A stretch of 64,000 bases of DNA from Blastococcus xanthinilyticus. GTDB lineage: Bacteria > Actinomycetota > Actinomycetes > Mycobacteriales > Geodermatophilaceae. Where the stretch lies: positions 62,001 to 126,000 of the forward strand of contig NZ_VNHW01000010.1 of NCBI RefSeq assembly GCF_008124835.1, in the 5' to 3' direction. Within the stretch, counting starts at the first letter, position 1; each line of letters begins with the position of its first letter. Below the pieces are notes generated by a model that saw only the letters and a list, made by a program, of their open reading frames with translations, ran no database searches and was not told the DNA's origin. A program made the position numbers and the translations under genes. Below are positions 29,828-34,612 of the stretch, one piece after another.

Positions 29828-31363
29828 TCAGAACCAGGAGGGGAACCACATCCGCTGCAGCCACTCGGCGTGCGACAGCGGTTGCCCGGTGAGGACCGGC
29901 CAGAAGAAGACGAAGGTGGCGGCCACGATCCCGACGTAGCCGCACGCGGCCACCAGCCCGGCCTGCCGGCGGAGCGGCCCGGCGTCCCGGGGACCCACGA
30001 CGTCCTGCAGCACCAGCGCGACCGCCAGCACGAAGAAGGGCACGACCGGCGCCATGTAGAAGATGAACATGGTCCGGTCGAGGTTCACGAACCAGGTGAG
30101 CCAGCCGGCGGCGATCCCGACGGCGACCGGGACGGCGGCCGGGTCCCGCCGCGCGACGATCCGCCAGCAGAGCCACACCACGGCCGGCACGAACGCCAGC
30201 CAGAGGGTCGGCGTCCCCACCATGAGGATGTAGCGGACGACCTGCTCGCCCCGGTCGTCGACGATGCCCTGCGGGTTCCACATGAGGATGGGCCGCCCGT
30301 CGACCAGCCACGACCACGGGCCGGACTCCCAGGGGTGGGGGCTGGACAGGCCGCTGTGGAAGGTCAGCCACTGGGCGTGCTCGTGCCACAGGGAGCGCAG
30401 CGGGCCGGGGATCCACGGGAACGCCGTCCCGGGGTTCTGCTGCGCCCACGCCCGGCCCTGGGAGGTCTCGCCGAGGAACCAGCCGGTGAACGACGCCAGG
30501 TAGGTGAGCACCGGCAGGGCGGCGAGCGCCCACAGGGCTCCGGGCAGCCCGCGGCGGGCGGCCGTGCGGGTCGGGCGCGGCACCCCCGCCTCCCACCAGG
30601 CCGCTCGGTCCCAGAACAGCGCCAGGACGGCGAAGAAGGCCAGGAACCAGACCCCGCTCCACTTCACCGCGCAGGCGCAGCCGAACAGCACCCCCGCCGC
30701 GATCCGCCAGCCGCGCGGCCCGAGCCGGAAGCCGGCGCCCCCGACCTGCGGCGCGGCCCGCACCCGTGCCCGGACGACGTCGCGGTCCACCACCAGGCAG
30801 GCGACCGCGCCCAGGACGAAGACCTGCAGGAAGACGTCGAGCAGGCCGACGCGCGCGAGGGTGAACGCGAAGCCGTCCACCAGCAGGAGCACCCCGGCGA
30901 ACAGCCCGACCAGCGTCGAGCCGCTCAGCCGGCGGGCCAGCCGGAACAGCACGACGACGGCGATCGAACCGGCCACCGCCGAGGGGAAGCGCCAGCCGAA
31001 GGAGGTGTAGCCGAACACCTGCTCGCCGGCCGCGATCAGCCACTTGCCCAGCGGCGGGTGGACGATGAAGGAGTAGCCGCGGTTGTACTCGTGGCCCCAG
31101 GTCAGCAGCTCGCGGGCCTCGGGCGGGTAGTACGCCTCGTCGAAGACCAGGTCGCGCGGGTAGCCGATGCCCCACAGCCGCAGGGTGAGCGCCACCGCGC
31201 CCAGCACGGCGGCGACGATCCACGCCGTCCGCCGGTCGTCGGGCAGGTGTCGGACGGCGTCCACCCGGCGCCGCGGGGGAGCCGGCCGCCGTGGCCGCAG
31301 CAGCGGCGGGCGCCCGGGGGCCGGTGGGGAGGACCCTGCCCGCTCGGGTGCCACCACCGCCAT
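29828..31363 (-). CDS. pmt: Dolichyl-phosphate-mannose-protein mannosyltransferase (PMT family)
   Basis: The 511-aa protein is a GT39 membrane mannosyltransferase: catalytic first loop GYPRDLVFDEAYYPPEARELL with the Asp-Glu pair, HPPLGKWLIAAGEQVFG, FPSAVAGSIAV, and further helices ending SHAEWLQRMWFPSWF. About ten to eleven membrane helices are visible. It transfers mannose from polyprenyl phosphate to exported proteins. It is divergent from rsmI, as in M. tuberculosis Rv1002c/Rv1003. On the minus strand TACCCT (31370-31375) lies 6 nt before the ATG, so the transcript is probably leaderless. Confidence 0.92.
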   Translation of the reverse strand: MAVVAPERAGSSPPAPGRPPLLRPRRPAPPRRRVDAVRHLPDDRRTAWIVAAVLGAVALTLRLWGIGYPRDLVFDEAYYPPEARELLTWGHEYNRGYSFIVHPPLGKWLIAAGEQVFGYTSFGWRFPSAVAGSIAVVVLFRLARRLSGSTLVGLFAGVLLLVDGFAFTLARVGLLDVFLQVFVLGAVACLVVDRDVVRARVRAAPQVGGAGFRLGPRGWRIAAGVLFGCACAVKWSGVWFLAFFAVLALFWDRAAWWEAGVPRPTRTAARRGLPGALWALAALPVLTYLASFTGWFLGETSQGRAWAQQNPGTAFPWIPGPLRSLWHEHAQWLTFHSGLSSPHPWESGPWSWLVDGRPILMWNPQGIVDDRGEQVVRYILMVGTPTLWLAFVPAVVWLCWRIVARRDPAAVPVAVGIAAGWLTWFVNLDRTMFIFYMAPVVPFFVLAVALVLQDVVGPRDAGPLRRQAGLVAACGYVGIVAATFVFFWPVLTGQPLSHAEWLQRMWFPSWF

Positions 31364-31369
31364 GCCGCC

Positions 31370-31409
31370 AGGGTAGGGGCGCCGGTGCGGAGACCGGCCG
31401 TGACAGGCT
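31370..31409. promoter_or_regulatory. Divergent leaderless promoters of pmt and rsmI
   Basis: On the minus strand TACCCT at 31370-31375 lies 6 nt before the pmt ATG. On the plus strand TGACAGGCT (extended -10, hexamer CAGGCT 31404-31409) lies 7 nt before the rsmI GTG. Only 53 bp separate the two start codons. Confidence 0.4.
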
Positions 31410-31416
31410 CATCCGT

Positions 31417-32256
31417 GTGAGCGGACGGTTGGTGCTGGGTGGCGCGCCCCTCGGGCAGCCGGGCGACGTCGGCCCGCGGCTGCGCGCCGCGATGGCGTCG
31501 GCCGACGTCCTGGCGTGCGAGGACACCCGGCGGCTGCACCGCCTCGCCTCCGACCTCGAGGTCACGCTGACCGGCCGGGTGGTCACCTTCCACGAGTCGG
31601 TGGAGCGGGCCCGGCTGCCCGGGCTGCTCGAGGCGCTCGGCTCGGGGGCCACGGTGCTGCTGCTGACCGACGCCGGCATGCCGTCGGTCTCCGACCCCGG
31701 CTACACGCTGGTGCGGGCGGCGATCGACGCCGGCATCGACGTCACCTCGGTGCCGGGGCCGTCGGCGGTGACCACCGCGCTGGCGGTCTCCGGGCTGCCG
31801 GTGGACCGCTTCTGCTTCGAGGGCTTCCTGCCGCGCAAGGGGGGCGAGCGGCGGTCCCGCTTCGCCGGGCTGGCCGACGAGCGCCGCACGATGGTGTTCT
31901 TCGAGTCACCGCACCGGCTGGCCGACGCGCTCGCCGACGCGGCCGGCGCCTTCGGGGGCGAGCGGGAGGCCGCCGTCTGCCGGGAGCTCACGAAGACCTA
32001 CGAGGAGGTTCGCCGCGGCGGGCTGGCCGAGCTCGCGGCCTGGGCGGCCGAGGGGGTGCGCGGCGAGATCACCCTCGTGGTGGCCGGGGCGCCGGAGCGG
32101 GCGGTGGAGCTGACCGCCGGCGAGCTGGCCGCCGCCGTCGCCGTGGAGGAGGCCGCGGGCGCGACCCGCAAGGACGCCATCCGCGCCGTCGTCACCCGCA
32201 CCGGGCTGCCCCGGCGCACCGTCTACGACGCCGTCGTCGCCGCCAAGTCCACCTGA
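31417..32256 (+). CDS. rsmI: 16S rRNA (cytidine(1402)-2'-O)-methyltransferase RsmI
   Basis: The 279-aa protein matches RsmI: VLGGAPLGQPGDVGPRLRAAMASADVLACEDTRRL, VVTFHESVERARLPGLLEAL, VLLLTDAGMPSVSDPGY, VTSVPGPSAVTTALAVSGLPVDRFCFEGFLPRKGGERRSR, FFESPHRLADAL and ELTKTYEEVRRGGLAEL. It methylates the 2'-OH of C1402 in 16S rRNA. The N-terminus is unusual: the common PIGN motif of the first glycine-rich segment reads APLGQPGD. GTG start from the probable leaderless promoter. Confidence 0.93.
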   Translation: MSGRLVLGGAPLGQPGDVGPRLRAAMASADVLACEDTRRLHRLASDLEVTLTGRVVTFHESVERARLPGLLEALGSGATVLLLTDAGMPSVSDPGYTLVRAAIDAGIDVTSVPGPSAVTTALAVSGLPVDRFCFEGFLPRKGGERRSRFAGLADERRTMVFFESPHRLADALADAAGAFGGEREAAVCRELTKTYEEVRRGGLAELAAWAAEGVRGEITLVVAGAPERAVELTAGELAAAVAVEEAAGATRKDAIRAVVTRTGLPRRTVYDAVVAAKST

Positions 32257-32277
32257 CACCGGTCCCTAGCGCCTTCT

Positions 32278-32330
32278 GTGCACGAACGGTTGCCTCCGGC
32301 CAGCGGCGACCACCTTCTGTGCACGAATGG
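32278..32330 (+). repeat. Left flanking repeat unit of the DUF559 gene
   Basis: GTGCACGAACGGT (32278-32290) and GTGCACGAATGG (32319-32330) are spaced 41 bp start to start, with TCCGGC in the spacer. The same two-copy unit, with identical 41-bp spacing, lies on the other side of the gene. Confidence 0.85.
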
Positions 32331-32384
32331 CACGTTGTGGACGACGGCGGCCGGCTCCGGGCGCGGCCCGGGCAGCCTGCCGCG

Positions 32385-33257
32385 GTGCCCGTGCAGCCCC
32401 GCGTCCCAGATCGTCTGTGCGGCAGGTTCTTCCGCGGGAGCGCCGTCGTCCGTGCCGGGTGGCTGACCCGGCAGCAGCTGCGCGGGCCGGCGTGGCGCCG
32501 TCTCTTCCAGGACGTGTACGTCGACGCCCGGGTCCCGGACACGCACGGCCTCCGAGCCCGTGCCGCGGCCGCGGTGCTGCTCCCCGGCGCGGTCGTCACC
32601 GGGGCGAGCGCGGCCGTGCTGTGGGGAGTCGACCTGGCCGACGTCCGGGACGACGTGGAGGTCACCGTCCCGCCCGGGACGCACCCTCGACGGCATCCCG
32701 GTCTGGTCGTCCGGCGCTCGCCCCTCCCGGAGACGGACGTCGTGCTGCGCCACCACGTGCAGGTCACGACGCCGACGGCCACCGCGCTGCGGCTGGCCCG
32801 GGCGCTGCCCCGGGACGAGGCCGTGGTCGCGGTCGACCAGCTCGTCGCGGCCACCGAGCTGGATCTCCGGCGGCTCAGGGCGCGTGTCCGGCCACCCGGG
32901 TCTGCCCCCGCGCGGGTGCGGGCGGTGTGCGAGCTGGCGGACGGTCGTGCCGAGTCGCCCCAGGAGACCCGGCTGCGGCTGCTCCTGCACCGCGGCCGGC
33001 TGCCCGTCCCGGTGGCCCAGCTCGTCGTGCGGCACGGCGGCGAGTTCGTGGCGCGGGTCGACTTCGCCTGGCCGGACGTGAAGGTCGCCGTCGAGTACGA
33101 CGGCGCGTGGCACGGTGCACCGGGGGAGCTGGCCCGTGACCGGCGGAGGATCAACCGGCTGCAGGAGGCCGGCTGGCGGGTCCTCTACGTGACGGCCGCC
33201 GACATGCACCACCCGGAGCGGCTGCTGGCCCGGATCCGTGCCGCGCTGGCGCGGTGA
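32385..33257 (+). CDS. DUF559/Vsr-like nuclease-domain protein with AbiEi-type N-terminal domain
   Basis: The 290-aa protein has a winged-helix-like N-terminus of the type IV antitoxin (AbiEi) kind: AGWLTRQQLRGPAWRRLFQDVYVDARVPD, VVTGASAAVLWGVDL. It ends in a DUF559 PD-(D/E)xK-type domain (about 215-285): RVDFAWPDVKVAVEYDGAWHG, then RINRLQEAGWRVLYVTAADM. DUF559 relates to very-short-patch repair endonucleases, but this actinobacterial class has no known function. The start is uncertain: GTG at 32385 or 32391, with an in-frame GTG inside the flanking repeat at 32319. No Shine-Dalgarno is evident. Matched direct repeats border the gene. Confidence 0.75.
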   Translation: MPVQPRVPDRLCGRFFRGSAVVRAGWLTRQQLRGPAWRRLFQDVYVDARVPDTHGLRARAAAAVLLPGAVVTGASAAVLWGVDLADVRDDVEVTVPPGTHPRRHPGLVVRRSPLPETDVVLRHHVQVTTPTATALRLARALPRDEAVVAVDQLVAATELDLRRLRARVRPPGSAPARVRAVCELADGRAESPQETRLRLLLHRGRLPVPVAQLVVRHGGEFVARVDFAWPDVKVAVEYDGAWHGAPGELARDRRRINRLQEAGWRVLYVTAADMHHPERLLARIRAALAR

Positions 33258-33263
33258 GCGGCG

Positions 33264-33323
33264 CCGTTCGTGCACGAACGGTCGCGTCCGGCGCGCCGAG
33301 ACACCGCTCCGTGCACGAACGGT
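33264..33323 (+). repeat. Right flanking repeat unit of the DUF559 gene
   Basis: GTGCACGAACGGT occurs at 33270-33282 and 33311-33323, again 41 bp apart. The first copy sits in a perfect 18-bp palindrome CCGTTCGTGCACGAACGG (33264-33281), and TCCGGC recurs in the spacer. The unit fills most of the 70-bp gap between the DUF559 and corA stops. Confidence 0.85.
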
Positions 33324-33327
33324 GGGG

Positions 33328-34437
33328 TCAGAGCCAGCCGCTGCGCTTGAAGCCGGTGTAGAGGAGCGCGATGGAACCCAGGATCACCAGCACGATGAGC
33401 CAGAAGCCCCAGGCCGACGTGGACAGCGGGATGTACTCGAAGTTCATGCCGTAGATCCCGGCGATCGCGGTGGGGACGGCGATGATGCCGGCGTAGGCCG
33501 AGATCTTCCGCATGTCCTCGTTGTCGGCCATCGTCGCCCGGGCCAGGGACGCCTGGAGGATCGAGGTCAGCAGCTCGTCCATGCCGGACACCTGGTCGCG
33601 CACGCGGATCGCGTGGTCGTGCACGTCCCGGAAGTACGAGCGCATGGCGTCCGCTACCACCTCGACCGGCCGCTCGGCGAGCTTCTGCAGCGGCGCCTCC
33701 AGCGGGAGGACCGCCCGCCGCAGCCCCATGAGTTCCCGCTTGAGCTGGTACAGCCGGCCGATGTCGTCGGTGCGCTGGGGGCTGAAGACCGACGCCTCGA
33801 GCTCCTCGACGTCCTCCTCCACGGCGGCGACGACCTCGACGAAGGTGTCCACGACCAGGTCGGCCACCGCGTAGAGCACCGCGGCCGGGCCCAGGCACAG
33901 CAGCTCGCGCTGCTGCTCCAGCCGCTGCCGCAGCTCGGCCAGGCCACCGTGCTCGCCGTGCCGGACGGTGATGACGTGCCGCGGTCCGAGGAACACCATC
34001 ACCTCGCCGGTGTCGAGGACCTCGCTGGTCGCCGTCAGCTGGTCGTGCTCCACGTAGGTGGCGGTCTTCAGCACCATGAACAGCGCGTCGTCGTAGCTTT
34101 CGAGCTTGGGCCGCTGGTGGGCGTAGACGGCGTCCTCGACGGCGAGCGGGTGGAGGTCGTACTCGTCCGCGATCGCCTCGAGCTCGGCCTCGGTCGGCTC
34201 GTAGAGACCGAGCCAGACGTAGCCGCCGCGCTCCTCGGCCACCCGCAGCGCGTCCCCGGGTGAGACGGCTTCCTGCCGCCGGCCGTCGACGTAGACGGCG
34301 CAGTCCATGATGGCGCCCTGGCCGGGAGGTCCCGTGGCGGTGCGCGGCCGCCGGCCGGCCGGCCGCGGCCGCAGGGTCGGGGGTGCGTCGGGCGCCATCG
34401 GGAGCGGCGGAGCCGGTGGGGTGTCCCGGGTGGTCAT
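33328..34437 (-). CDS. corA: Magnesium/cobalt transporter CorA
   Basis: The 369-aa protein has a disordered Pro-rich N-terminus, the soluble CorA domain (GGYVWLGLYEPTEAELEAIADEYDLHPLAVEDA, HQRPKLESYDDALFMVLKTA), the long helix region, and two C-terminal membrane helices. The pore signature is IAGIYGMNFEYIP (GMN motif) at the end of TM1, followed by WGFWLIVLVILGSIALLYTGFKR. It forms a pentameric Mg2+ channel. GAGGAGGGG lies about 6 nt before the ATG at 34437. Confidence 0.94.
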   Translation of the reverse strand: MTTRDTPPAPPLPMAPDAPPTLRPRPAGRRPRTATGPPGQGAIMDCAVYVDGRRQEAVSPGDALRVAEERGGYVWLGLYEPTEAELEAIADEYDLHPLAVEDAVYAHQRPKLESYDDALFMVLKTATYVEHDQLTATSEVLDTGEVMVFLGPRHVITVRHGEHGGLAELRQRLEQQRELLCLGPAAVLYAVADLVVDTFVEVVAAVEEDVEELEASVFSPQRTDDIGRLYQLKRELMGLRRAVLPLEAPLQKLAERPVEVVADAMRSYFRDVHDHAIRVRDQVSGMDELLTSILQASLARATMADNEDMRKISAYAGIIAVPTAIAGIYGMNFEYIPLSTSAWGFWLIVLVILGSIALLYTGFKRSGWL

Positions 34438-34612
34438 CGCGGTCCCCTCCTCGGAGCTCGGTCGGCAGGACGCCGGTTGCAGCGTAGGCGCGCCCACCCG
34501 CGGCCGAGACGTGTCACCCGCGCGGGTGGAATCGCCGGCCCGGCTCTCCAGCAGCGGCCCGCGCCCGCCGTCCTGACCGGGGACAGCACCCACCGGTCAG
34601 GGAGTCAGCCCC

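Follow-up and report, generated by a model that had tools for sequence, protein, structure and literature searches.

A Predicted DUF559 Nuclease Gene Between Matched DNA Dyads at the rsmI-corA Junction of Blastococcus xanthinilyticus

What keeps the same DNA repeat on both sides of a single gene? The question is raised by a 64,000-nucleotide stretch of the Blastococcus xanthinilyticus genome (contig NZ_VNHW01000010.1, positions 62,001 to 126,000; hereafter the window), in which a DUF559 gene lies between rsmI and corA with a matched repeat unit on each side. The Pfam entry for DUF559 gives the function of the family as unknown. The answer favored here is that both units would be sites on double-stranded DNA recognized by the protein whose gene they enclose, and such a pairing of enzyme and cognate site is highly probable. 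The reading as a whole, in which gene and units form a nuclease-driven element resembling repetitive extragenic palindromic (REP) sequences, is given a probability of about 0.6; the protein likely binds its units and may also cut, copy, and mobilize them. The arrangement suggests that such genes form a family, selfish or site-bound, that has received little notice. Among the literature matches listed for DUF559, REP sequences and their associated tyrosine transposases (RAYTs), AbiEi, and EDxHD/Vsr, none describes in its title or the start of its abstract DUF559 genes bracketed by cognate repeats.

Paired Dyads at the Window Locus

The DUF559 gene (32337..33257, + strand) is recognized by Pfam with 23.6 bits against a cut-off of 20.6; its candidate starts are the GTG at 32337 and a GTG at 32319, within the left unit. 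Exact copies of GTGCACGAAYGG are found on the + strand at 32278-32289 and 32319-32330 before the gene and at 33270-33281 and 33311-33322 behind it. The copies within each pair are 41 bp apart, the two units have the same orientation and lie exactly 992 bp apart, TCCGGC lies at the same offset of 17 bases in both units (starting at 32295 and 33287), and a perfect 18-bp palindrome (33264-33281) makes up the first half-site of the right unit. The copies, their spacings, the shared TCCGGC, and the palindrome had been claimed in the original prediction and are confirmed, except that the last base of the right unit is 33322 rather than 33323. The palindrome adds a fifth match to GTGCACGAAYGG, on the minus strand. 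With up to one mismatch, the window holds seven matches against 0.9 expected, a number reached by 0 of 100 shuffles.

Each unit had been described as a two-copy direct repeat. The copies are real, but it had been overlooked that every unit amounts to one imperfect inverted repeat (dyad) of 47 bp, GTGCAC cores included, since GTGCAC is its own reverse complement and the arms separating the cores can largely pair with one another. The left core, GTGCAC-N35-GTGCAC, spans 32278-32324 and the right core 33270-33316; with their outer arms, the dyads occupy 32272..32330 and 33264..33322.

Bracketing Across Genes and Lineages

Left and right flanks are alike (score of at least 20) in 104 of 122 DUF559 genes of the bacterial family and in 43 of 185 control genes, with median left-right scores of 29 and 17, respectively. 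The 122 genes, drawn from 30 loci of the search for relatives, 60 further down its list, 30 of a class-B search, and two others, are a non-random set in which orthologues are not independent. Controls were the other genes in unit-bearing loci; windows were equal, and class-B genes were placed with a single trimmed query. Narrower windows, in which some class-B genes were misplaced, gave 89/122 for DUF559 genes and 25/187 for controls, the top control being the hydrolase pair: two near-identical GTGCAC units in the window genome that flank a gene of alpha/beta hydrolase-like appearance (L029:2971-3985, G000:C5) in place of a DUF559 gene.

Cross-pairs within the family were dropped as a control: just 6 of 122 own pairs exceeded the 95th percentile. 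Such cross-pairs score high because the rsmI-corA genes share conserved neighboring coding sequence; control genes were therefore used within the family and cross-pairs outside it. There, a flank score of at least 20 is reached by 28 of 38 DUF559 genes compared with 31 of 1406 cross-pairs, and the gene's own partner ranks first in 26 of the 38. This sample was taken as 40 of more than 140 class-wide matches, with frames of about 280-470 amino acids and one exception, a long fusion; this locus was dropped from scoring for too little sequence downstream, as was a badly chosen region.

The repeat sequence varies by gene class and lineage, with left resembling right: GTGCRC ends, GTCGACT, CGAGATGCG, TGATCACC, GGCATAGG, and others occur. 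A local duplication of a transcription-related repeat, once offered as the alternative, does not explain this class-specific match.

Predicted Domains of the Protein

The AlphaFold2 model of the window protein has a predicted local distance difference test (pLDDT) score of 93.2. In structure comparison, its N-terminal two-thirds match the AbiEi fold and its nuclease part the Vsr/EDxHD fold. The protein is predicted to consist of an AbiEi-type DNA-binding module (residues 19-199 of the frame 32346-33254; 32400..32942, + strand) fused to an EDxHD/Vsr-like nuclease domain (residues 204-303; 32955..33254, + strand) with D239, E250, H256, and D265 as invariant residues. Pfam searches of 40 proteins returned only MTES_1575, DUF559, AbiEi_1, and AbiEi_4, with no Y1/HUH transposase family among the matches, and PADLOC returned AbiEi and Vsr-type matches. 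Relatives at E 1e-20 are present in 107 of 112 genomes of the family, with 1-9 matches per genome. The strongest class-wide matches to MTES_1575, a related Vsr-like domain, are open frames of about 1200-2700 codons that are separate from the small AbiEi-type genes.

Geometry of the Dyads

Two classes of unit have a fixed length. A survey of 244 flanks yielded 87 hairpins of 30-75 bp with GTGC/TTGC..GCAC/GCAA ends, the left window unit among them; their length is 47 bp in 62 cases and 48 bp in 19. Across 62 distinct 47-mers, positions 5-20 are paired in 73% of cells, a value raised by the selection of hairpins (set ends and at least 11 of 15 outer pairs were required), compared with 43% when the 3′ arms are re-dealt (maximum 48%) and 22-33% when they are slid. 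Pairing is patchy and forms no continuous stem: positions 11-14 are paired in 94-100%, by several kinds of pair, and positions 7-10 and 15-19 in 50-76%. Of the 42 distinct class-B units, 38 measure 60 bp (lengths of 42-77 were searched), and pairing in this class declines beyond about 23 bp. Unit ends are symmetric, either GTGCRC or GGCATAGG. Both fixed lengths fall within 1-2 bp of the published AbiEi and Rv2827c operators, whose geometry is 23-3-23 or 23-13-23 according to an excerpt of PMC7319586.

Because an RNA stem should favor G:T over A:C mismatches, and the counts give no clear excess (67:49 in the 47-mers and 37:35 in class-B units), the symmetry of the dyads favors duplex DNA over an RNA terminator. 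Two blocks of well-preserved pairing, spaced by about one turn of the helix, and the strictness of the length suggest that two protein subunits sit on the DNA.

Units Without a Gene

In the window genome, the pattern GTGCACGAA-N29-TTCGTGCAC (up to two mismatches) occurs eight times and a control pattern not at all. Any match to it is present in 23 of 112 family genomes, a figure that should not be read as the number of unit-bearing genomes: it takes in units with different arms (GTGCACGCAGCGCG.., from a second genus) and some single matches whose arms are not unit-like. From 42 loci with GTGCAC pairs at 41 bp (6 in the window genome, 36 in others), 50 units of GTGCAC type pass the pairing filter. 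A DUF559 gene or its remains is present at 5 of the 42 loci and absent from 37. The original prediction had named units equally common without the gene as grounds for abandoning it, and to the letter such units are found: plainly, units need no adjacent DUF559 gene. A dispersed REP-like family, with units mostly lacking a gene, would look alike.

The class-B core GGCATAGGARGCT has 20-29 forward-strand matches in each of five genomes with a class-B gene (G004, G005, G007, G009, and G021), four and two matches in two others with such a gene (G016 and G022, respectively), and none in G008, whose class-B gene has altered units, GGCATGGGAAGCG. The 15 genomes without a class-B gene have 16 matches in the window genome, two in G020, one each in G011 and G012, and none in the other 11; the reversed control pattern has none in all 23 genomes of the genus.

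Units also differ between relatives at the same place. At the hydrolase junction, the left unit of the window genome is lacking in four relatives with the same neighbor, and on the other side of the hydrolase gene relatives are empty or have different hairpins. Another junction has a class-B unit in G009 and none in G007. A further one has a class-B unit in G004 (L342:501) and a GTGCAC-type unit in G022 (L101:4093), as though units of different classes landed at the same gene ends. The last two comparisons were the informative ones of an all-against-all flank search that mostly returned rsmI-corA. Such presence and absence point to gain or loss of units, whatever the mechanism.

Most class-B units sit at gene ends. 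They have a median distance of 9 bp to the nearest stop codon (34/39 within 30 bp), and GTGCAC-type units, placed with a simple home-made gene caller, one of 17 bp (23/32 within 30 bp). Between convergent genes lie 18 of 40 placed class-B units and between divergent genes one; the convergent share does not differ informatively from that of other gaps in the same loci (5/13, p 0.76). In the window, the left unit follows the rsmI stop, and the right unit follows the DUF559 stop and faces the convergent corA. These positions directly behind stops and between convergent genes would suit bidirectional terminators of rsmI, DUF559, and corA that bracket the gene only because every gene end has one, and one window-genome copy (C8:32408) resembles a strong hairpin. 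This account is nevertheless quite improbable. A terminator requires neither sequence shared across a gene nor a constant 47 or 60 bp, G:T mismatches show no clear excess, pairing is patchy, no T-run is present downstream of either window unit, and other genes in unit loci seldom have matched flanks (the 43/185 above). Rfam returned nothing at gathering score within 31200-34600. Termination may still be a secondary function of the units.

The same placement bears on whether the units are AbiEi-type operators only, belonging to a repressor with autoregulation and a small regulon and with a nuclease domain that has its function elsewhere, such as in phage defense. The AbiEi fold, the operator-like geometry, the AbiEi and Vsr-type PADLOC matches, and the 8 of 50 GTGCAC-type units between divergent genes are in keeping with such a role. 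It is unlikely to be the whole account, since the downstream unit and most class-B units are at gene ends rather than promoters (1/40 class-B units divergent), congeners have anywhere between 0 and about 30 copies of the motif, and units are missing from orthologous junctions.

History of the rsmI-corA Junction

The upstream neighbor is the 16S rRNA methyltransferase gene rsmI (31291..32256, + strand, putative start; Pfam TP_methylase, E 3.7e-31), and the convergent downstream neighbor is corA (33328..34593, - strand; Pfam CorA, E 1.3e-54). A corA orthologue is present in 23 of 23 genus genomes, rsmI lies beside it in all of them, and the junction is always occupied by the cassette or its remains. 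The states are a forward class-A gene in nine genomes, an inverted class-A gene in four, a class-B gene (inverted) in eight, a decayed gene remnant in one (G020), and a lone 47-bp unit with no gene in one (G013). This last state, an empty site with one remaining unit, had been predicted and is found in 1 of 23 genomes. The forward class-A gene of G014 (L229) is split over two frames and probably broken.

On the corA tree, these states require seven changes, and well-supported branches force at least four for class B and at least two for inverted class A. Gene and sites have thus been repeatedly swapped, turned, and lost at this one junction. The position itself is old because the same gene class is found there in 13 of 23 genus genomes, the window genome included, in either orientation. 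Insertion at a new place was dropped on this ground, and the junction is an old hotspot rather than a fresh insertion. The original idea that the nuclease gene is maintained together with a REP-like repeat of its own gains from the class-specific bracketing inside and outside the family and from the lone unit of G013; a recent move to this spot is not supported.

A neutral history would have cassettes exchanged by homologous recombination via rsmI and corA and left-right likeness maintained by ordinary gene conversion of nearby repeats, the nuclease being uninvolved. It accommodates the cassette or remains in 23/23 genomes and the seven state changes, with four needed for class B. It leaves unexplained why many classes of DUF559 genes are bracketed elsewhere in the genome and beyond the family, and why motif numbers track gene presence, and it is very improbable.

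Proposed Mechanism and Known Systems

In the favored reading of cognate enzyme and site, the AbiEi-type part would read the dyad's half-sites of about 20-23 bp as a symmetric pair. By analogy with AbiEi operons, the upstream site is probably also autoregulatory. Delivery of the nuclease, and its nicking or cutting, would take place at the downstream site and at the solo sites scattered elsewhere. Repair would then copy units, and sometimes the whole unit-gene-unit cassette, between sites; this copying could keep left and right alike, invert or delete the gene between near-palindromic sites, and spread solo units mostly to gene ends.

In function, such an element would parallel REP/RAYT, with an enzyme unrelated to RAYTs. 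Excerpts describe REPs as short extragenic palindromes in groups specific to particular cognate RAYT enzymes (PMC3116915), usually more than 100 per genome (PMC2817692), with a GTAG or CGTC tag at one end (PMC3733652). The DUF559 units are likewise dispersed extragenic palindromes (10/50 of GTGCAC type lie inside predicted genes) that also flank an enzyme gene. They differ in being long dyads of fixed length at about 2-30 per genome, and neither tag was found at the unit ends examined. RAYTs are Y1/HUH transposases, whereas the DUF559 protein combines AbiEi with an EDxHD/Vsr-like part. With the EDxHD homing endonuclease I-Bth0305I, whose target of near 60 bp is bound by a dimer according to part of PMC3943268, the protein shares the nuclease fold, conserved acidic and histidine residues, and, if the units are its targets, a long target. 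An intact unit, however, stands on each side of the gene in place of one interrupted site; the locus has no visible intron or intein, the DNA-binding part is of AbiEi type, and there are many solo host sites.

AbiE type IV toxin-antitoxin systems have the AbiEi fold in common, and the site geometry is near the 23-3-23 or 23-13-23 excerpted from PMC7319586. In contrast, no DUF1814 nucleotidyltransferase toxin gene adjoins the DUF559 gene in the window, where its neighbors are rsmI and corA; a nuclease domain is added, and a second operator-like site lies downstream with further copies elsewhere. IS200/IS605 elements have an enzyme gene between two structured ends. The DUF559 locus resembles them in this layout and differs in lacking an HUH enzyme, in its old shared position, and in its symmetric dyads.

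Tentatively, and with somewhat more doubt than belief, the locus may represent a new selfish element across the actinomycete class: an EDxHD nuclease steered by AbiEi to dyads of 47-60 bp, positioned between two of its own sites, propagating solo sites in the manner of miniature elements, and switching specificity with both flanks converted in step, as a reinvention of REP/RAYT from an unrelated nuclease. If true, the enzyme-plus-palindrome arrangement arose more than once. Should the flanking dyads prove to be targets, the recognition site of every such gene could be read off beside it, which would make many natural nuclease-site pairs directly testable; rapid change of DNA specificity could be traced site by site, and scattered palindromes would gain a source.

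Several observations weigh against the favored reading of a nuclease-driven, REP-like element. By the flank score used here, 18/122 family genes and 10/38 outside genes are unmatched. Unit and protein similarity are only weakly correlated (rho 0.19, permutation maximum 0.135; 72 units), and in this comparison, which includes partly misplaced class-B genes, units are common to very close proteins only. Fixed length is established for two classes alone (47/48 and 60 bp), and other classes vary, at about 55-65 bp in the family and 35-71 bp outside it. Placement is less tidy for the 50 GTGCAC-type units than for class B, as they are spread over 18 convergent, 14 tandem, and 8 divergent gaps, with 10 inside predicted genes. 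Swaps at rsmI-corA could have come about by plain homologous recombination through both genes, and uncut sites in the host genome would require an unproven restraint. Target duplication is not established, a single possible 7-bp repeat at the hydrolase junction being too weak. About 18 class-B-core sites in the window genome (contigs C1-C30) are orphan units with no close class-B gene. In G017 and G022, the GTGCAC-type units are unlike those at the rsmI-corA gene, and their cognate gene was not found in either genome.

Two tandem arrays were also seen. In G017 (L098:4073-4201, contig C1), four GTGCAC cores recur exactly every 41 bp and the three spacers between them are identical; a similar array of class-B cores lies at G007:C1:2725341-2725479 with a 42-bp period.
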